The translations under genes and the position numbers were made by a program. 64,000 nt of DNA, from NCBI GenBank assembly GCA_020063565.1, contig JAICDB010000011.1, forward strand, positions 62,001 to 126,000, given 5' to 3'. The stretch comes from Clostridiales bacterium (GTDB lineage: Bacteria; Bacillota; DSM-16504; Desulfitibacterales; JAICDB01). A model generated the notes under the pieces. The model was not told where the DNA came from. It did no database searches and saw nothing but the letters and a program-made list of their open reading frames with translations. Shown piece after piece: positions 1,716-46,528 of this stretch; the first letter of the stretch is position 1, and the number at the start of each line of letters is the position of its first letter.

Positions 1716-1772
1716 CAGCCATTTGCACCCACGGTCGATGGGAGGATGGTATGTTGCTACATGGGCAACTAT

Positions 1773-1811
1773 ACCCTTTTTGTGCCTTCCGGGTGCAAAA
1801 AGGGTTTTTTA
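1773..1811 (+). terminator. Rho-independent terminator of the nrdDG riboswitch
   Basis: ACCCTTTTTG (1773-1782) pairs with CAAAAAGGGT (1796-1805) and is followed by a T-run. It is the expression platform of the preceding cobalamin riboswitch; its 3' arm overlaps the sequence complementary to 1722-1730. Confidence 0.88.
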
Positions 1812-1837
1812 TTTTAAGAACCGGGAGGGAGTACAAA

Positions 1838-3778
1838 ATGCTCAAAATAATTATTAAAAGGGATGGCAGAACAGTCGCTTTTAATGAGGAGAAAATAACC
1901 AAATCCTATATCCTCTATCGCAAGCAGCGTGCGGAGATGCGCCAGTTCAGCAGTTTTTTGGTGGATGCGGAAAAAATGGTTAATGAATATGTGGGTGGCA
2001 GGAGCTGGAAGATAAATGAAAACAGCAATATTAATTTCTCGTTACAGGGATTAAATAATCATATAATATCTGCAGTAACCTCCAAATACTGGCTGGAAAA
2101 AATTTATCCGGAAGAAATTAAAATGGCCCATAAGAGCGGGGACATCCATATCCATGACCTGAACCTTCTTGCTCCTTACTGCTGCGGCTGGAATATTGAG
2201 GATATCCTCTTAAATGGCTTTTCCGGTGTAGCCCAAAAGGTTGAAAGCAGGCCTGCAAAACATTTTCGCAGTGCCCTGGGGCAGATAACTAACTTTTTTT
2301 ATACGCTGCAGGGAGAAGCTGCTGGAGCCCAGGCCCTGTCTAATTTTGATACATACCTGGCGCCCTTTATTCGCTATGATGGATTAAACTACAGGGAGGT
2401 TGAACAGGCGCTGCAGGAATTTGTCTTTAACCTTAACGTTCCAACCAGAGTAGGTTTTCAAACACCCTTTGTTAATATAACCATGGATGTTGTTGTTCCG
2501 AAAATCCTTGCAAATGAGCCCGTCATTCTTGGGGGGAAACGTTTGGATGACGCAAAATACGGGGATTTCCAGGCTGAAATGAACATGCTCAATAAAGCTT
2601 TTTGTAAAGTTATGATGGAGGGAGATGCCAAAGGGCGTATTTTTACATTTCCAATTCCAACTTACAATATAGGAAAAGACTTTGCCTGGGATAGCCCTGT
2701 TGTGGAAACTATTATGGAGATGACAGCAAAATACGGCATACCTTACTTTGCCAACTTTATTAACTCAGACCTTTCTCCGGAAGATGTGCGCAGTATGTGC
2801 TGCCGTCTCAGACTTGACAACAGGGAACTTCAAAAGAGAGGCGGAGGGCTGTTTGGTGCAAACCCTCTCACAGGTTCCATAGGTGTAGTTACCATCAACT
2901 TACCCCGGATAGGTTACAAAGCTCATAGTCCGATGGATTTCTTTAAACAACTTAGACAGCAGATGAATTTGGCGAAGGAAAGCTTACTTATTAAAAGAAG
3001 AATCTTAGAAAAACTGATGGAGGAGGGATTGTATCCTTATTCCAGGTTTTATTTAAGGGATGTGAAAATGAGATTTAATGAATACTGGCACAATCACTTT
3101 AATACCATAGGTTTGGTAGGTATGAATGAAGCATTGCTTAATTTTATGAATAAAAGCATTGCTTCCAGTGAAGGAAGAAAGTTTGCCATAGGCGTTTTAG
3201 ATTATATGAGGGAAGTCATTAGGGAATACCAGGAAGAAACAGGGCAGTTGTTTAACCTTGAAGCCACCCCTGCCGAGGGCACAGCCTACAGGCTTGCTAA
3301 AATAGACAGGAAGCTGTTTTCGGATATTATAACCTCAGGAGAAGAAGAACCTTATTATACTAATTCTACACAACTGCCTGTTGGTTATACTGATGATATT
3401 TTTGAAGCATTAGATCTGCAAGAGGAACTTCAGATTCGTTATACGGGTGGTACTGTTTTTCACGGCTTTCTAGGGGAAAGGATTACAGATGTGGGGAATT
3501 GTAAAAAGCTTCTTAAACTGGTACTGAGCAATTATCAGATACCGTACTTTACAATAACTCCCACATTCAGCATTTGTGAAAACCATGGCTATTTAAACGG
3601 GGAACAAAGCAATTGTCCCGTATGTGGCGAAAAAACTGAAGTATGGAGTCGTGTGGTAGGCTTCTATAGGCCGGTTGACAACTGGAACAACGGTAAAAAA
3701 AGTGAGTTTGCCCAAAGAAAAGAATTTTGTGTAGGACACCCGCAGGAGGTGTTTGTCTATGATAAAGGGCTGGCATAA
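1838..3778 (+). CDS. nrdD: Anaerobic (class III) ribonucleoside-triphosphate reductase
   Basis: 646 residues. The ATG at 1838 has GGGAGGGAG just upstream; upstream in-frame starts lie inside the riboswitch and are rejected. Residues 1-95 form an ATP-cone allosteric domain. The catalytic barrel contains MCCRLRLDN near residue 320 with the thiyl-radical cysteine region. The C-terminus has a zinc site (CxxH ... CPVCG) and the glycyl-radical motif RVVGFYRP with Gly608 as the radical residue. The enzyme makes dNTPs without oxygen and without B12, and needs NrdG for activation. The adjacent nrdG overlaps its stop. Control by a cobalamin riboswitch implies that it is shut off when B12 is plentiful. 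Confidence 0.96.
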   Translation: MLKIIIKRDGRTVAFNEEKITKSYILYRKQRAEMRQFSSFLVDAEKMVNEYVGGRSWKINENSNINFSLQGLNNHIISAVTSKYWLEKIYPEEIKMAHKSGDIHIHDLNLLAPYCCGWNIEDILLNGFSGVAQKVESRPAKHFRSALGQITNFFYTLQGEAAGAQALSNFDTYLAPFIRYDGLNYREVEQALQEFVFNLNVPTRVGFQTPFVNITMDVVVPKILANEPVILGGKRLDDAKYGDFQAEMNMLNKAFCKVMMEGDAKGRIFTFPIPTYNIGKDFAWDSPVVETIMEMTAKYGIPYFANFINSDLSPEDVRSMCCRLRLDNRELQKRGGGLFGANPLTGSIGVVTINLPRIGYKAHSPMDFFKQLRQQMNLAKESLLIKRRILEKLMEEGLYPYSRFYLRDVKMRFNEYWHNHFNTIGLVGMNEALLNFMNKSIASSEGRKFAIGVLDYMREVIREYQEETGQLFNLEATPAEGTAYRLAKIDRKLFSDIITSGEEEPYYTNSTQLPVGYTDDIFEALDLQEELQIRYTGGTVFHGFLGERITDVGNCKKLLKLVLSNYQIPYFTITPTFSICENHGYLNGEQSNCPVCGEKTEVWSRVVGFYRPVDNWNNGKKSEFAQRKEFCVGHPQEVFVYDKGLA

Positions 3779-4430: not shown

Positions 4431-4514
4431 AAAGAATACACCAGAATTTGTTCAAATTTTCTATTGAAATAATTTGCCAGTGGTGATAGAATTATTTCAA
4501 AAGTTAATAGTTTG

Positions 4515-4785
4515 ATAGCAAGTGAAAGTGTGTAGGTCAAAAAGGATTTTTTGAACTACCTCTTAAAGGGAATCCGGTGTAAATCCGGAGCGGTCCCGCC
4601 ACTGTAAGGGGGAGCCTTCTTGCTTTTGGCCACTGTCCAGGCACTTAACTAGCATTGAAGTAAAGAAAGACTTAGTATAAAGGTTGTTCTATTTCAGTGT
4701 TAGTCATCAAAAAACTATGGTTAAGTGCCGGACGGGAAGGCGCAAGATCGGGCTGTGAACCTGAGCCAGGAAACCTGCTTGTTAT
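4515..4785 (+). promoter_or_regulatory. Cobalamin riboswitch with an expanded peripheral arm (leader of cbiJ-cbiMNQO)
   Basis: The core blocks GGGAATCCGGTG, GCGGTCCCGCCACTGT and GAGCCAGGAAACCTGC are the same as in the nrdDG leader. P1 pairs 4515-4522 with 4778-4785. Between them the peripheral domain is enlarged by about 100 nt. GTCC/GGCACTTAAC (4635-4649) pairs with 4720-4733, and inside it 4650-4660 pairs with 4693-4703, making a long rod. The TTTGTACCC segment after the aptamer is complementary to the terminator's 3' arm, giving the same switch design as at nrdDG. The strong similarity of the two leaders suggests duplication. Confidence 0.92.
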
Positions 4786-4843
4786 TTAAGCTATTTGTAC
4801 CCACGGTCGATGGGGAAAGCGGTATTAGTTGAGATGGGATAAT

Positions 4844-4879
4844 ACCCCTTTGTATCAGTGGTACAAAGGGGTGTTTTTA
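4844..4879 (+). terminator. Riboswitch terminator upstream of cbiJ-cbiMNQO
   Basis: A perfect 11-bp stem (4844-4854 with 4862-4872) with a short loop and a T-run. The 3' arm includes the GTACAAAG sequence that can instead pair with the TTTGTAC element after the aptamer. Confidence 0.9.
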
Positions 4880-4897
4880 TTATTAATTTAAAGTGTG

Positions 4898-4984
4898 TGT
4901 TCGAAAAGGAGCACGAGAGACACGAGAAGTTCAAGGCGGCGAAGGCTCTGAGCAGCGGAGCGTACATTGAAGTACGTGAGCAGC
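4898..4984 (+). repeat. MITE-like repeat, truncated copy
   Basis: The first 87 bases match the full copy at 5152-5295, with 84 of 87 positions identical by hand alignment. It begins with the terminal repeat TGTTCGAAAAG and stops abruptly at GTGAGCAGC. The right half and right terminal repeat are missing. It lies between the riboswitch terminator and the type-II-like cobalamin element. Confidence 0.75.
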
Positions 4985-4994
4985 AAATATTTCT

Positions 4995-5128
4995 GAAATA
5001 GGTACTTTATCCTGAGGGATAAGGTTTAATCTAGACCGGTGAAATTCCGGTGCGAAACTGTGAAGGATAGCAAGGTTCAAATAGACTTGAGCCTGCAATG
5101 ATTCCTGAGCCAGTTAGAGGCCTATTTC
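4995..5128 (+). promoter_or_regulatory. Candidate type-II (Cbl-II-like) cobalamin riboswitch
   Basis: A perfect 8-bp outer helix pairs GAAATAGG (4995-5002) with CCTATTTC (5121-5128). Inside it are CCGGTGAAATTCCGG (a hairpin with the GGTGaAAtTCC core seen in cobalamin aptamers), then GCGAAACTGTGA. Near the 3' end is CTGAGCCAG, resembling a shortened B12 box, placed as in the Cbl-II group (short, lacking the large peripheral domain). The location upstream of cobalt-transport genes supports the call. It would be the second cobalamin sensor in one leader. No obvious terminator follows directly; a MITE copy begins 24 bases downstream, so the expression platform may be displaced or lost. Confidence 0.6.
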
Positions 5129-5151
5129 AATCGCGCACCGTTTATAGTGAG

Positions 5152-5295
5152 TGTTCGAAAAGGAGCACGAGAGACGCAAGAAGTTCAAGGCGGTGAAGGC
5201 TCTGAGCAGCGGAGCGTACATTGAAGTACGTGAGCAGCGTAGGAGACGAGCCAACGCAGAAATTCGCAGCGGATTTCGCGCGGACTTTTCGAACA
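5152..5295 (+). repeat. MITE-like repeat, full copy (144 bp)
   Basis: It has 11-bp terminal inverted repeats: TGTTCGAAAAG at 5152-5162 and CTTTTCGAACA at 5285-5295. The interior has several sub-hairpins and no credible gene; a 63-codon open frame across it is a by-product of its composition. A truncated copy is at 4898-4984 and a collapsed end-to-end remnant at 41103-41118. No target-site duplication is evident. Confidence 0.75.
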
Positions 5296-5488
5296 TCTAC
5301 TTAAGGGGGGGTGATTGGATAGGTCTATGTTTTTTTAAGTAGCTCCCCGGTGGTAAACTGGGGATATTTTATACTCAAAGAAAGTATTAATTTGGGGATG
5401 CATAAATTCAACTAAGGCTTCCGCCGGCGTCAAAGACTTGGCGCAAGCCAAGTTTTCATTTAATTATCGTAGTTATCGGGGTGAGTAA
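5296..5488 (+). other. Leader segment before cbiJ with alternative pairings
   Basis: This noncoding stretch holds an inverted repeat, CTACTTAA (5297-5304) with TTAAGTAG (5335-5342). A G-run (5305-5311) can pair with CTCCCC (5343-5348), which can alternatively pair with ACTGGGG further on. These could be a remnant expression platform of the cobalamin element at 4995-5128. It also contains the dispersed 59-bp repeat (5392-5450). Confidence 0.35.
5392..5450 (+). repeat. Dispersed 59-bp repeat, copy A
   Basis: 52 of 59 positions are identical, without gaps, to 39446-39504 by hand alignment. The 3' half contains an inverted repeat around GCAA: ACTTGGC and GCCAAGT. Both copies lie in intergenic DNA 40-130 bp upstream of a gene for uptake or metabolism. 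It has no coding potential and its function is unknown. Confidence 0.7.
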
Positions 5489-6277
5489 ATGATTGCAGTA
5501 GTTTGCGGCACCAGAGAAGGAAGAGAAATAGCTTCGCTTCTTGTTGAGAAGGGATTTGAGTGTATTGCTCTTACCACTACCGAATATGGTAAAAGACTAG
5601 CAGGAGAGAGCGGAGTTGAAGTTATTTCGGGTAATTTTACAGGAGAAAAATTAAACACTATATTTTCGGAAAAGGATATAAAAACTGTAGTTGATGTTTC
5701 GCATCCCTTTGCACACAGGGAAGCAAAGCTATTGAAAAAGCTTTGTGATGAAAAGCAAATTAATTATATTCGCTATTTAAGGGAAGAAACGGAAATACCA
5801 GAAAATTCTCTGATTCACCCGGTAACCTCCTGGCAGGAAGCGGCAGAATATGCCGGGAGGCTGGGAAATACCATTTTTCTCACCACCGGCAGTCATAACC
5901 TGGAGGAGTTTTTAGAATATATTGACTTAAATAAAAAAAGGGTTATTGTAAGGGTTTTACCGGACCATAAGATTATTAAAAAGTGTCAGGATTTAGGTTT
6001 TGCGCCCAAGGACATCGTAGCTATGCAGGGACCTTTTTCAAAGCAGATGAACAGGTGGACCTTCAAAATGTATAATGCATCAGTTGTAATAACCAAAGAC
6101 AGTGGTAAAGCCGGGGGAACAGATACCAAGGTTTCTGCCGCCCTGGATTTAAAAATACCTGTGGTAGTAATTAAACGCCCCTTCATGCAACAGGGGAAAA
6201 CAGTTAGAACTTATGATGAAGTATTACAGTTTTTAAGAGAACAATCCGATCAAAATTCTAAACAAATGAGAAGTTAG
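5489..6277 (+). CDS. cbiJ: Cobalt-precorrin-6A reductase (first copy)
   Basis: 262 residues; the ATG at 5489 follows GGGGTGAG. It belongs to the CobK/CbiJ family: an N-terminal nucleotide-binding segment [12 protein letters not shown], the SHPFA motif near residue 72, and the C-terminal [10 protein letters not shown] motif. The enzyme reduces the corrin macrocycle of cobalt-precorrin-6A using a nicotinamide cofactor. It heads the cobalt-transport operon, with cbiM 10 bases downstream. A second, clearly different copy lies in the main cobalamin operon (53608-54390). Whether the two differ in substrate or only in expression is unknown. Confidence 0.9.
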
Positions 6278-6287
6278 GAGGATTTTA

Positions 6288-7028
6288 ATGTATAAAATAC
6301 TCTCTTCTATGATATTTGCGCTTCTAGGCCTTTTGTTTGTGCCTACAAACGCTTATGGTATGCATATTATGGAAGGATTTTTGCCTATTAGCTGGGCAGC
6401 GCTTTGGGGTGTAGTCACTTTACCCTTTGTAATTTACGGTCTTCGTTCCATTAAAAATAAGGTTGACGAAAATCCGAGCATAAAAATGCTCATTGCCTTT
6501 GCAGGAGCCTTTGCATTTGTGTTATCTGCACTTAAAATACCGTCTGTTACAGGAAGTTGTTCCCATCCTACAGGAGTAGGATTAGGTGCCATTTTATTTG
6601 GACCTACGGTAATGACAGTACTGGGGCTAATAGTTTTAATTTTCCAGGCACTTCTTTTAGCCCACGGCGGTATTACCACCCTTGGAGCAAATACCTTTTC
6701 CATGGCTGTTGTGGGACCCTTTGTTGCTTACTGGTTATATAAAGGGTTGCAAAAAATGGGAGCGCCAAGATGGCTGGCAGTATTTCTGGGCGCCGGTTTG
6801 GGAGATTTGGCTACATATGTAGTTACTTCAATACAGCTTGCACTTGCTTATCCTTCTGAAGCTGGGGGTGTAGCTGCTTCCCTGGCCAAATTTGCCGGAA
6901 TTTTTGCTGTAACTCAAATTCCGCTAGCTATTTGTGAAGGTCTGTTAACTGTGGTAGTTATTAATTTCCTGGTTTCCTATAACAAGCAGGACCTGCAACA
7001 ACTTTCAGTTATCAAGAAGGAGGGCTAA
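6288..7028 (+). CDS. cbiM: Cobalt ECF transporter substrate-capture protein CbiM
   Basis: 246 residues with an N-terminal signal peptide (about residues 1-24). Cleavage before MHIMEGFLP would expose the Met-His N-terminus known in CbiM/NikM to ligate Co(II) or Ni(II). Several membrane helices follow, with the family segments [16 protein letters not shown] and [11 protein letters not shown]. CbiM with CbiN captures cobalt and passes it to the CbiQ-CbiO energising module. It is followed directly by cbiN (2-base gap). Genomic association with cbiJ and cobalamin riboswitches points to cobalt rather than nickel. Confidence 0.95.
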
Positions 7029-7030
7029 AA

Positions 7031-7312
7031 ATGGCTAAAAATATATTTTTATTGTTACTGGTTGTGGTGATTGCTGCAATTCCTTTGATTATCAATCCGG
7101 GAGCGGAATACGGAGGCGCTGACGGGGAAGCGGAAGCAGCTATTTCTGAAATAAGCCCGGATGCGGAACCCTGGTTTGATCCGATTTGGGAACCACCCAG
7201 TGGAGAAATTGAAAGTTTGCTATTTGTGCTGCAGGCGGCAATTGGAGCAGGTGTTTTCAGTTTTTACATGGGGTATCTGGTTGGTAAGAAAAAGGGAATG
7301 GAAGTAGGTTAA
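7031..7312 (+). CDS. cbiN: Cobalt transport accessory protein CbiN
   Basis: 93 residues with two predicted membrane helices (about 5-22 and 65-85) joined by an acidic extracellular loop that includes EPWFDPIWEPPSGEIESLLF, the conserved CbiN loop. CbiN is a small auxiliary subunit that enables CbiM to take up cobalt. It sits tightly between cbiM and cbiQ (2-base gaps), the canonical CbiMNQO order. Confidence 0.95.
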   Translation: MAKNIFLLLLVVVIAAIPLIINPGAEYGGADGEAEAAISEISPDAEPWFDPIWEPPSGEIESLLFVLQAAIGAGVFSFYMGYLVGKKKGMEVG

Positions 7313-7314
7313 GA

Positions 7315-8094
7315 ATGTTTAAAATTGACCACTTTGCCTATTCTAACAACTTAAGAGCGGTTCATCCCCTCGAGAAATTTCTCTTTGCTATAATCACAAT
7401 GTTATTGTGTCTAATCTTTGGCGATATAATAACTTCCTTGGCTGTGTTAGCTTTAATGTCAGGGTGCGTGATAATGCTGGCCGGGATCAACTGGCGGCTA
7501 TATGTAAAACTTTTAACTTTGCCGTTAAGTTTTTTACTTGTAGGGATAGTGGCAATCATAGTGTCGCTATCCCTGCAGCCCGTTGATTTTTTATATGGGT
7601 TTAATATTGGCAGGTTATATATTGGCATCCAATCAGGAGATCCATATGTGGCCGGAAGACTGTTTTTCAAAGCATTGGGTGCGGTGTCCTGTTTGTATTT
7701 TTTAGCGTTAACCACTCCCATGACTGAAATTTTTACTGTCTTACGAAAATTTAAGGTGCCACCCCTTTTCATTGAATTAATGGAACTTATCTATAGATTC
7801 ATATTTGTTCTTTTGGAAACAGCCGGTAAAATTCATCTTTCCCAGAATTCCAGGTGGGGATATGCCTCCTTTAAGTCTTCATACAGGTCATTGGGGATAC
7901 TTTTATCCAACTTATTTGCCAGGGCATACTGGCGCTCCAAGATTAGCTTTACAGCACTTCTTTCAAGAGGGTATACTGGTAATATCAATGTGCTTCAGCC
8001 CGAATACAATACGTCAATGAAAAATATTTGCCTTATAGCAGTAGTGGATATTTTGCTGCTTCTTCTGGGACTTTACGGGAGGGGAATAATTTGA
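7315..8094 (+). CDS. cbiQ: Cobalt ECF transporter transmembrane protein CbiQ
   Basis: 259 residues, starting at an ATG 2 bases after cbiN. It is the T-component of the energy-coupling-factor transporter: N-terminal HPLEKFLFAI motif, membrane helices, and coupling helices in the region ARAYWRSKISFTALLSRGY, where the Ala-Arg-Gly motifs contact the ATPase. Its stop codon overlaps the start of cbiO. It links ATP hydrolysis by CbiO to substrate release by CbiM. Confidence 0.92.
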   Translation: MFKIDHFAYSNNLRAVHPLEKFLFAIITMLLCLIFGDIITSLAVLALMSGCVIMLAGINWRLYVKLLTLPLSFLLVGIVAIIVSLSLQPVDFLYGFNIGRLYIGIQSGDPYVAGRLFFKALGAVSCLYFLALTTPMTEIFTVLRKFKVPPLFIELMELIYRFIFVLLETAGKIHLSQNSRWGYASFKSSYRSLGILLSNLFARAYWRSKISFTALLSRGYTGNINVLQPEYNTSMKNICLIAVVDILLLLLGLYGRGII

Positions 8095-8945
8095 CATTTA
8101 TTCTGGAAGCAAAAGATGTACATTTTCAATATGAGGATGGCACCATGGCCCTGCAAGGCGTTTCTTTAGGGATAGAAGAAGGGAAAAAGGTTGTTATTTT
8201 AGGCTCCAATGGCGCTGGTAAATCTACTTTATTTTTACATTTTAACGGTATACATAAGCCGCAAAGCGGAGAAATAAAATTTGCTGATGAAAAGATTAAA
8301 TATAAAAATTCCTACCTGAAAAATTTACGCAAAAATGTGGGCATAGTCTTCCAGGATCCCGATACACAGCTTTTTTCAGCAAATGTATTTCAGGAAATTT
8401 CCTTTGGGCCCTTAAATCTCGGTCTATCAGAGGAAGAGACACGCCGGAGAGTTACCAGAGCCATGGAAGAAACGGGAATTACCCACTTGAAGGATAGGCC
8501 AACCCACCTTTTAAGTTACGGTGAAAAGAAAAGGGTTGCCATTGCTGATATTCTTGCCATGGACCCTCAGGTCATAATCTTCGATGAGCCTACAGCCTGG
8601 CTGGATCCTGTAAGTACCGTACAGATTATTCATCTCCTCAATAAAATTAATGAGCAGGGAAAAACACTGCTCTTATCCACCCATGACGTTGACCTGGCTT
8701 ATTCCTGGGCAGATTATATCATAGTTATGAAAAAGGGCAGGGTTATCAGCAAGGGAAGGCCTGAGGAAGTTTTTCAGGATGAAATCCTTTTAAAGGACGC
8801 AGGCCTGGTCAAGCCCTGGATTCTGGAAGTTTACGATAAATTGCTGGAGCAAGGCATGCTTAGAGATAGTTCATTTATTCCCCGCACCAAGGAAGAGTTA
8901 TTACAAATGATTGGTGAAAAAGAAATTAAGGTAAGTGTTCTTTAA
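8091..8945 (+). CDS. cbiO: Cobalt ECF transporter ATPase CbiO
   Basis: 284 residues from a TTG start that overlaps the cbiQ stop (TTGA), with GGGAGGGG seven bases upstream; longer upstream starts would run far into cbiQ. Motifs in order are Walker A LGSNGAGKST, Q-loop FQDPDTQLF, ABC signature LSYGEKKR, Walker B VIIFDEPTAWLDP and the H-loop STHDVD. The C-terminal 60 residues form the usual CbiO extension. It is the last gene before a terminator. Confidence 0.95.
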   Translation: MTFILEAKDVHFQYEDGTMALQGVSLGIEEGKKVVILGSNGAGKSTLFLHFNGIHKPQSGEIKFADEKIKYKNSYLKNLRKNVGIVFQDPDTQLFSANVFQEISFGPLNLGLSEEETRRRVTRAMEETGITHLKDRPTHLLSYGEKKRVAIADILAMDPQVIIFDEPTAWLDPVSTVQIIHLLNKINEQGKTLLLSTHDVDLAYSWADYIIVMKKGRVISKGRPEEVFQDEILLKDAGLVKPWILEVYDKLLEQGMLRDSSFIPRTKEELLQMIGEKEIKVSVL

Positions 8946-24514: not shown

Positions 24515-24633
24515 ACCCGTAAAAACCAGAAAAATGTAAAAAAACTGTAGTAAGTAATACCAAATAACCTGCAGTAATTGACATATTTTACCTGTTTTTT
24601 CCTTTATAATGGGGGTGTACTCAAAGAAAAATA

Positions 24634-24706
24634 GGGGTGGGCTATGAAGTGCGTTTCAAAACTGGGCACCTGAAACGTACAGAGTCAGTGGTGCAACCGA
24701 ACCCGG
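24634..24706 (+). promoter_or_regulatory. c-di-GMP-II riboswitch
   Basis: The sequence follows the c-di-GMP-II aptamer pattern: ATGAAG, then CTGGGCACCTGA, a short hairpin, GAGTCAGTGGTGCAACCGA and a C-rich end. GCACC (24666-24670) pairs with GGTGC (24690-24694), CTGA (24670-24673) with TCAG (24685-24688), and the G-rich 5' flank can pair with the ACCC at the end. A terminator (24700-24732) starts within the aptamer's last bases, so ligand binding and termination are mutually dependent. It precedes a signal peptidase gene. A TATAAT at 24605-24610 is a candidate -10 box. Confidence 0.78.
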
Positions 24707-24732
24707 CCTTTGCGAAGGATCGGGTTTTAATT
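24700..24732 (+). terminator. Terminator of the c-di-GMP-II riboswitch
   Basis: AACCCG (24700-24705) pairs with CGGGTT (24721-24726), with an inner CCTT/AAGG helix, followed by a T-rich tail. It overlaps the 3' end of the aptamer. Confidence 0.75.
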
Positions 24733-30842: not shown

Positions 30843-31122
30843 AAGTAAAAATAAATGTAACAAATTGATAAAAACTATGAAGGAGAAAAGTAAGTTAACT
30901 TCGACTTTCCAGGGAGAAGGTGCCATTGACTGGAAGCACCTTTAATGTTTGATTTAACTGAAGTTCTCTCCGGAGTTGCCGGTTGAAAACTTTTGAGTGA
31001 GTAGGCTGAGCCGTAGTCTTCCAACGTTACATGGAAGGGGTATCGGAACATTAGTTCCCGTATCTTGAGTTGAGTGGATTTGTTTTTCAGAGCAAATCAA
31101 CTAGAGTGGTAACGCGGTAAGC

Positions 31123-31160
31123 AAAAGCTTTTCGTCTCTAAATGGCGAATAGCTTTTTTT
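31123..31160 (+). terminator. T-box terminator 1
   Basis: 31123-31134 pairs with 31146-31157 with one mismatch, followed by T. It competes with the antiterminator containing the first T-box. Confidence 0.85.
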
Positions 31161-45836: not shown

Positions 45837-46039
45837 TGTGTAATCCCTGCTTAAGACAGGGTTTCACCTCCTGCACAAGTTTCTTCAATTATTTCTTATT
45901 GTTTATTACTTACAAGAATATTATTCTTTTAACAAAATTTTTATTATAAATAAAGGAATTTATCCCTGGTCGGTAGAATCCTTAAATTAAGAAATTTGAA
46001 ATTTTGTTATTGACCTGACACAAAATTGAATAAAAGGAT

Positions 46040-46208
46040 AAGTTAGGTGCCTCGCATGAGGTTAAAAGGGAATCGGGTAACAAGCCCGAGCGGTCCCGCC
46101 ACTGTAACTGGGGACGACCTTTACATTATGTCACTATTTCGGGTTGAGTGCCGGGATGGGAAGGCGTAAAGGAAGGAAGATCCAGGAGCCAGGAAACCTG
46201 CCTAACTT
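46040..46208 (+). promoter_or_regulatory. Cobalamin riboswitch (leader of the main cobalamin operon)
   Basis: P1 is AAGTTAGG (46040-46047) with CCTAACTT (46201-46208). The core includes AAAAGGGAATCGGGT, GCGGTCCCGCCACTGT and the B12 box GAGCCAGGAAACCTGC. Its peripheral arms and expression platform differ from those of the two leaders at 1541 and 4515, so it is an independent lineage. A strong terminator (46278-46311) follows. Confidence 0.93.
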
Positions 46209-46277
46209 GTATGCGTAGCAAGACTCCTTCGAGGAAAGGTAGGTCCGCGCGGTATTACAATACCACGAGTATACCTA

Positions 46278-46397: not shown

Positions 46398-46528
46398 AGT
46401 CAAACCCGGTAAACCGTAGGAAAAAATTGGGGCGAGCGTCAGGAGGTCGCGAGCCGCGCGACTTAAGTCAGGACGACGAATTGCGCGGGAACCCCAATTT
46501 TTTCCGGAGGTGAACCGTTGGTTTGACT
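46398..46528 (+). repeat. 131-bp inverted-repeat element (MITE-like) upstream of cbiA
   Basis: The ends AGTCAAACC and GGTTTGACT are inverted. A second inner pair AAAAAATTGGGG (46421-46432) and CCCCAATTTTTT (46492-46503) is perfect. The spacer between the pairs is only partly complementary, giving imperfect termini of about 35 bp. The interior is GC-rich compared with its surroundings. It lies between the riboswitch terminator and cbiA, so it is part of the operon's 5' leader. No second copy is seen in the window. Confidence 0.6.

Follow-up and report, generated by a model that had tools for sequence, protein, structure and literature searches.

A classical cobalamin riboswitch followed by a kissing-loop-free, corrinoid-riboswitch-like element: a candidate tandem switch ahead of cobalt uptake genes in anaerobic Bacillota

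Introduction

Does the leader of a cobalt uptake operon in a Clostridiales bacterium carry two working cobalamin sensors, or has one of them been cut off from its output by repeat insertion? The question is raised by a stretch of 64,000 nucleotides (hereafter, the window) from a draft genome (80.8% complete, 29 contigs), in which cbiJ/cobK and cbiMNQO are preceded by an unusually composed leader. The original prediction described a classical cobalamin riboswitch with its terminator, followed by a compact second element that resembled the type-II cobalamin group, was bracketed by a truncated and a full copy of one repeat, and had no normal expression platform next to it. Two explanations were put forward, namely that the operon integrates two forms of cobalamin, or that the repeat has disconnected one of the switches. 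The analysis described here favors, with a probability of roughly 0.55, a model of two switches in series, in which an adenosylcobalamin (AdoCbl) OFF switch would be followed by a second switch that is coupled to its terminator through helix P1, acts in the ON direction and, in this window, senses a corrinoid.

Results

The features of the leader and operon are collected in Table 1. The first element is an ordinary AdoCbl OFF switch with a terminator; the original prediction likewise gave a classical cobalamin riboswitch with its terminator. A sigma-70-like promoter is correctly placed just 5′ of this riboswitch, in a consensus scan whose number of matches was no better than chance; the scan found no promoter inside the repeats.

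Table 1. Coordinates of the features of the leader, the downstream operon and the paralogous tandem
Feature	Position	Strand	Evidence or remark
Sigma-70-like promoter, TTGAAA-17-TAGAAT, TG preceding second hexamer	4464..4492	+	consensus scan
First element: classical cobalamin riboswitch aptamer with L5 (UCCCG)	4506..4796	+	RF00174 90.3 bits; L5 regex
P13-L13 hairpin CCCACGGTCGATGGG, kissing-loop partner in first element	4800..4814	+	sequence; 33/35 first elements have the same hairpin
Terminator of first riboswitch	4841..4879	+	hairpin 4841-4875 and U tail
Truncated copy (98 nt) of interspersed repeat, between the two switches	4887..4984	+	P1 begins about 10 nt downstream
Second element: compact corrinoid-riboswitch-like RNA	4995..5128	+	RF00174 35.6 bits; fold; alignments
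P1 of second element, GAAATAGG/CCTATTTC	4995-5002 / 5121-5128	+	perfect
P2 hairpin of second element	5004-5025	+	
P4 of second element with T-loop-like L4	5035-5039/5047-5051	+	
GCGA in place of L5, second element	5052-5055	+	
P6 of second element	5056-5115	+	
T5′: P1 3′ strand and extension, also 5′ arm of platform hairpin/terminator	5117..5139	+	folds; covariation in relatives
Full copy of interspersed MITE-like repeat, in loop of platform hairpin	about 5141..5303	+	
T3′: 3′ arm GGGGGGGTGATTGGATAGGTC and U-run; alternative partner of T5′ and of 5′ arm of T2	5305..5336	+	
T2: second downstream terminator, TCCCCGGTGGTAAACTGGGGA and U-rich tail	5344..5369	+	5′ arm can pair with T3′
Copy belonging to a third interspersed repeat family, between T2 and cbiJ start codon	5366..5464	+	24 matches in own genome
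cbiJ/cobK, precorrin-6x reductase	5489..6277	+	PF02571 4e-72
cbiM, cobalt ECF transporter substrate component	6288..7028	+	PF01891 8e-60
cbiN	7031..7312	+	PF02553 7e-31
cbiQ	7315..8094	+	PF02361 3e-37
cbiO-type ABC ATPase	8028..8945	+	PF00005 6e-34; start codon uncertain
Paralogous tandem, classical element	C10:44152-44430		
Paralogous tandem, compact element	C10:44526-44692		RF00174 59.0 bits; 47.6 trimmed

When positions 4975-5150 were searched alone, RF00174 matched 4983-5139 above its cut-off (35.6 against 31.5 bits, E = 6e-8), so that the covariance search bears out the claim of two cobalamin-riboswitch-type elements in one leader. Scans of the whole window and of 1.5 kb miss this match through filter loss: the default Rfam filters drop an above-threshold riboswitch that lies within a long sequence. 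Annotation probably underestimates the number of degenerate second elements in general. The perfect 8-bp P1 and the core CCGGTGAAATTCCGG were also as predicted, and the element keeps the P4/L4, ACUGU and GAGCCAG of the cobalamin core. Its fold lies 4.1 standard deviations below those of dinucleotide shuffles and, together with the Rfam E-value and the covariation across the family described below, this led us to reject a chance origin. The L5-L13 kissing loop is absent from the window's second element, in which GCGA replaces L5 and no P13 is found, and inspection by eye revealed no complementarity between its L2 (CCCGAGGG) and the L5 or L13 of the first element. The best reading is that the second element is a descendant of a corrinoid riboswitch without the kissing loop.

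The expression platform of this element, which had been thought to be missing from its vicinity, is retained according to the folds, with a 5′ arm that shares nucleotides with P1 and a 3′ arm located past the full repeat copy. In a fold of 4985-5345, the P1 3′ strand and its extension, GGCCUAUUUCAAUCGC (approximately 5119-5134), pair with GGGUGAUUGGAUAGGUC (approximately 5309-5325), a U-run follows at 5330-5336, and the full repeat copy forms an internal hairpin. Because the T3′ arm and U-run are found past this copy, the repeat is placed within the loop of the terminator hairpin. With the respective pairs forced, the terminator state is favored over the P1 state by 8.0 kcal/mol both with the repeat (-147.0 versus -139.0 kcal/mol) and without it (-80.5 versus -72.5 kcal/mol), a gap that could be small enough for ligand binding to bridge. 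Forcing P1 in the window's fold does not abolish the upper part of the terminator stem or T2, so that the ON state of this particular leader is not obvious.

The bracketing of the second element by two copies of one repeat is real, the truncated and full copies being 95% identical across their shared part. The repeat is MITE-like, that is, short, non-coding and multi-copy (52 matches genome-wide), with the inverted ends TGTTCGAAAAG/CTTTTCGAACA. All three repeat insertions in the leader lie in spacers or loops and spare the pairing arms. Disconnection of a switch by the repeat was rejected once the 3′ arm had been located beyond it, since both arms, and their competition with P1, are unchanged in the folding model.

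The same genome contains a further tandem 22.5 kb upstream (C10:44152-44692), without the repeat and ahead of a gene for a surface protein with SLH and DUF4430 domains. Its compact element is 74% identical to that of the window, and its platform is a perfect, uninterrupted terminator that overlaps P1 and ends in a U-run. Among the differences between the two copies, compensatory changes were read by eye in P2, P4 and P6.

A first covariance model, built from the window element and this paralog, found matches in 22 of 119 relatives; the weaker ones include ordinary single classical switches (for example L050, L052, L056, L057, L059, L063-L065, L069, L071 and L073). A second model, built from 13 diverse elements, found the element in 29 of 398 genomes of the phylum, belonging to 17 of 266 genera and with at most five matches per genome; Moorella thermoacetica, M. 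mulderi and M. stamsii are among the carriers. One of its matches, L116, is again an ordinary single classical switch. The counts leave out the second model's matches in one genus (L136-L138), where the P1/P2 motif stands behind a classical switch and the platform is altered. Pattern matches in two MAGs, one delta-proteobacterial and one from Bacteroidetes (L139, L144), correspond to no model match, and hence were attributed to chance.

A classical cobalamin riboswitch lies directly 5′ of 34 of the 35 strong second elements (33 by motif, one by eye), usually with the second element 95-155 nt past the B12 box; together with the tandem in the window's own genome, this shows the two-sensor arrangement to be conserved. 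A core-bearing element (L122 3068-3250) and its near-identical twin (L123 8774-8956) stand alone before cbiMNQO, with no classical switch within 800 nt upstream. A single classical switch precedes two consecutive second elements at L115:17192-17583 (minus strand). Only some classical switches in a genome are accompanied: in four genomes the proportions are 2/8, 2/3, 2/6 and 2/7, and in the window's genome the proportion is 2/7. The first genes downstream are mostly cbiJ/cobK-cbiMNQO, cbiMNQO, ABC importers with periplasmic binding proteins, or SLH/DUF4430 surface proteins, and second elements are thus mostly found ahead of cobalt or corrinoid uptake genes, where for the importers and surface proteins it is their position that suggests a role in corrinoid uptake. 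A few of the first genes have no assigned function. When 20 second elements were isolated and searched with RF00174, 18 gave no match, one scored 25.1 and only the own-genome paralog passed; most examples are missed by Rfam. Our literature coverage was incomplete and yielded no published description of the second element, and as far as could be checked the tandem design is widespread in anaerobic Bacillota and apparently undescribed.

Covariation was measured on 28 aligned second elements, against shuffles and slid controls. P1 is paired in 90% of cells and P2 in 97%, and double-sided changes affect eight of the nine P2 pairs. For the exclusive T5′/T3′ helix the paired fraction is 77%, and 10 of its 18 pairs vary on both strands. 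The covariation of both mutually exclusive structures exceeds that of all or nearly all shuffles and of every slid control, although in P1 the variation is largely one-sided (five of eight pairs) and covariation is weaker than in P2 or the platform hairpin. RNAalifold, run without a given structure, recovered P1, P2 and the P6 hairpin; 16 of their 23 pairs show compensatory changes.

Two types can be told apart. The core-bearing type comprises the window element, its paralog, L107, L108, L109-L111, L120 and L122, and keeps P4 CGGU..CCG and ACUGU in all nine members and GCCAG in nearly all. In the remaining elements, about two thirds, P4/P5 and the ACUGU/GAGCCAG internal loop are gone, and P1, P2, the P6 hairpin and the P1-overlapping terminator are retained. 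A kink-turn-like GA/GAUGA internal loop in P6 was recognized by eye in both types, and neither L5 nor P13 is present in any of the 35 second elements, as against 33 of 35 first elements with P13.

In elements other than that of the window, the gap between the P1 and terminator states, with pairs forced, is approximately 3 to 14 kcal/mol. The further terminator T2 follows T3′ in about 40% of elements, and T3′ (GGGAGGTG..) is complementary to its 5′ arm. Among 14 of the corresponding antiterminator segments, most exceed shuffled sequences in stability, about five of them clearly; for the window, p is 0.08, which is not significant alone. The T3′ strand GGAGGTGAT is also a near-perfect Shine-Dalgarno sequence, with up to 12 of 13 matches (12/13 in L114, near 9300). 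A leader peptide was rejected because no conserved start codon follows, and a role of ribosome binding to this strand in antitermination is conceivable.

Discussion

In the mechanism that we propose, the 3′ strand of P1 (T5′) doubles as the 5′ arm of the terminator hairpin T5′/T3′. With P1 held, as by a bound ligand, T5′ would be occupied, the full hairpin could not form and transcription would read through; the T3′ strand freed in this manner could then serve as an antiterminator against T2. With P1 open, T5′ would pair with T3′ and transcription would stop. Ligand binding is predicted to turn the operon on because P1 formation predicts read-through, with or without T2, and it is from these modeled folds that we infer the ON sign. 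Combined with the upstream OFF switch, the leader would obey the logic 'AdoCbl low AND second signal present' (NOT A AND B). The inserted repeat would lengthen the terminator loop and leave both competing pairings intact, and the window copy is presumably active. As P4/L4, ACUGU and GAGCCAG are kept, a corrinoid is the likeliest ligand in the window, where the element probably binds some corrinoid form; that the two sensors read two forms of cobalamin, as the original prediction suggested, is possible.

In repressing corrinoid switches, P13 is stabilized by the ligand and blocks an antiterminator, and in the sole activating corrinoid switch known, P13 itself blocks the terminator (PMC10653944). 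The second elements share with the repressing transcriptional riboswitches of RF00174 the P1 helix, the P2 hairpin, P4 with L4, ACUGU, GAGCCAG and the GAUGA loop in P6, as well as the same kinds of operon and the use of the GGGAGGTG strand as antiterminator. They differ in having neither L5 nor P13/L13, in that the P1 3′ strand is the 5′ arm of the terminator and would take over the role of P13, in their reversed predicted sign, and in the loss of P4/P5 from two thirds of the relatives. The activating cobT riboswitch of Alkalihalobacillus halodurans (PMC10653944) resembles the mechanism predicted here in that activation is achieved by preventing a terminator. However, cobT needs the kissing loop and P13, whereas the second element would use P1, has no kissing loop, and stands second in a tandem before uptake genes; a kissing-loop-stabilized P13 antiterminator of the cobT type was not encountered in the second elements, which have neither L5 nor P13. 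As the corrinoid switches studied, repressing and activating alike, are described as needing the kissing loop (PMC10653944), the second element may not sense corrinoids.

Both the window leader and its paralog contain two aptamers that are each followed by their own terminator, as tandem riboswitches do. In this they resemble the tandem AdoCbl doublets (PMC9481103), with two corrinoid-type RNAs per leader and a terminator for each, yet the doublets are counted as belonging to one class and interpreted as pseudo-cooperative, while here 18 of 20 second elements have no RF00174 match. In its predicted logic the leader resembles the TPP/HMP-PP (thiS) tandems, which combine an end-product OFF switch with a terminator-overlapping ON switch to give NOT A AND B (PMC6478431, PMC9481103). 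Their aptamers are other ones, and in the present case the second aptamer derives from the class of the first.

The conservation pattern is what might lead one to doubt that the second element senses a metabolite at all. Approximately two thirds of the relatives are without P4, P5 and the ACUGU/GAGCCAG loop and yet retain P1, P2 and the platform, and T3′ resembles a strong ribosome-binding sequence; P1/P2 and the terminator could accordingly be controlled by a protein, the ribosome or the speed of transcription, or give a fixed level of read-through, with the core a fading relic. Such a device nevertheless appears unlikely given the retention of P4 CGGU..CCG and ACUGU throughout the nine core-bearing members, the compensatory changes between the two copies of the window's genome, the strong covariation of the P6 hairpin in all elements, and a T3′ that no conserved start codon follows. 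In the window alone, the split of the terminator by the repeat might have left the second switch inactive or constitutive, so that the first switch runs the operon by itself. The roughly 165 bp between the arms could delay closing of the hairpin with respect to the U-run, and the truncated copy and third repeat crowd the same leader. This is quite unlikely in view of the intact arms and U-run, which still pair in the folding model around the repeat's internal hairpin, the unchanged gap of 8.0 kcal/mol, and the confinement of all three insertions to spacers or loops.

Could the second element instead be another OFF switch for the same ligand, steepening the response? Twenty-six AdoCbl doublets are known and read in this pseudo-cooperative manner (PMC9481103), and the first element is of their kind. 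It is distinctly improbable for the second, as P13/L13 and L5 are missing in all 35, and coupling runs through P1 alone, whose formation is incompatible with the terminator and not with an antiterminator, the opposite of what is found in repressing corrinoid switches (PMC10653944). The type-II assignment of the original prediction, under which the element would be a Cbl-II (env8-like) sensor of aquo- or methylcobalamin, fares worst and is very improbable. While the element is indeed compact and shares with Cbl-II the absence of the peripheral P7-P11 region, its sole listed cobalamin-family match is to RF00174, no match of the Cbl-II or AdoCbl-variant Rfam models was listed for 4975-5150 up to E 10, and L5 and L13 are absent along with the kissing loop that env8HyCbl possesses, going by its citation in PMC10653944.

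The model of an AdoCbl OFF switch followed by a P1-coupled ON switch is the reading that we prefer for the window. As most relatives are without the P4/P5 core, cobalamin recognized in the known way cannot be the signal of the whole family. We class the second element as a corrinoid riboswitch variant, and see a real possibility that the core-less type is a class of its own. More specifically, and tentatively, since we put the odds somewhat against it, the core-less elements may constitute an orphan riboswitch class that arose from a corrinoid riboswitch, responds to a non-cobalamin signal, such as a precursor of corrinoids or some other indication that uptake would pay, and acts as an ON switch behind the AdoCbl OFF switch. 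Cobalt and corrinoid importers would then be made only when the cofactor is low and the signal present.

If the serial model holds, it describes a lineage of corrinoid riboswitches in which the kissing loop is gone, the switching helix has changed and the sign is reversed; as most members have no cobalamin pocket, it would also make visible how one riboswitch can turn into a different regulator. The second element occurs in culturable Moorella, on operons for cobalt and B12 uptake. In the window leader, a terminator loop has also accommodated a mobile repeat.

Other riboswitches were observed elsewhere in the window. The corrin biosynthesis operon at 46510 has a single classical switch (46028-46219) and no second element, and a further classical cobalamin riboswitch (1531-1724) lies directly 5′ of the anaerobic ribonucleotide reductase gene (NRDD, 1751-3778). 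Rfam gathering matches also identify a c-di-GMP-II riboswitch at 24628-24711 and a T-box leader at 30868-31142.
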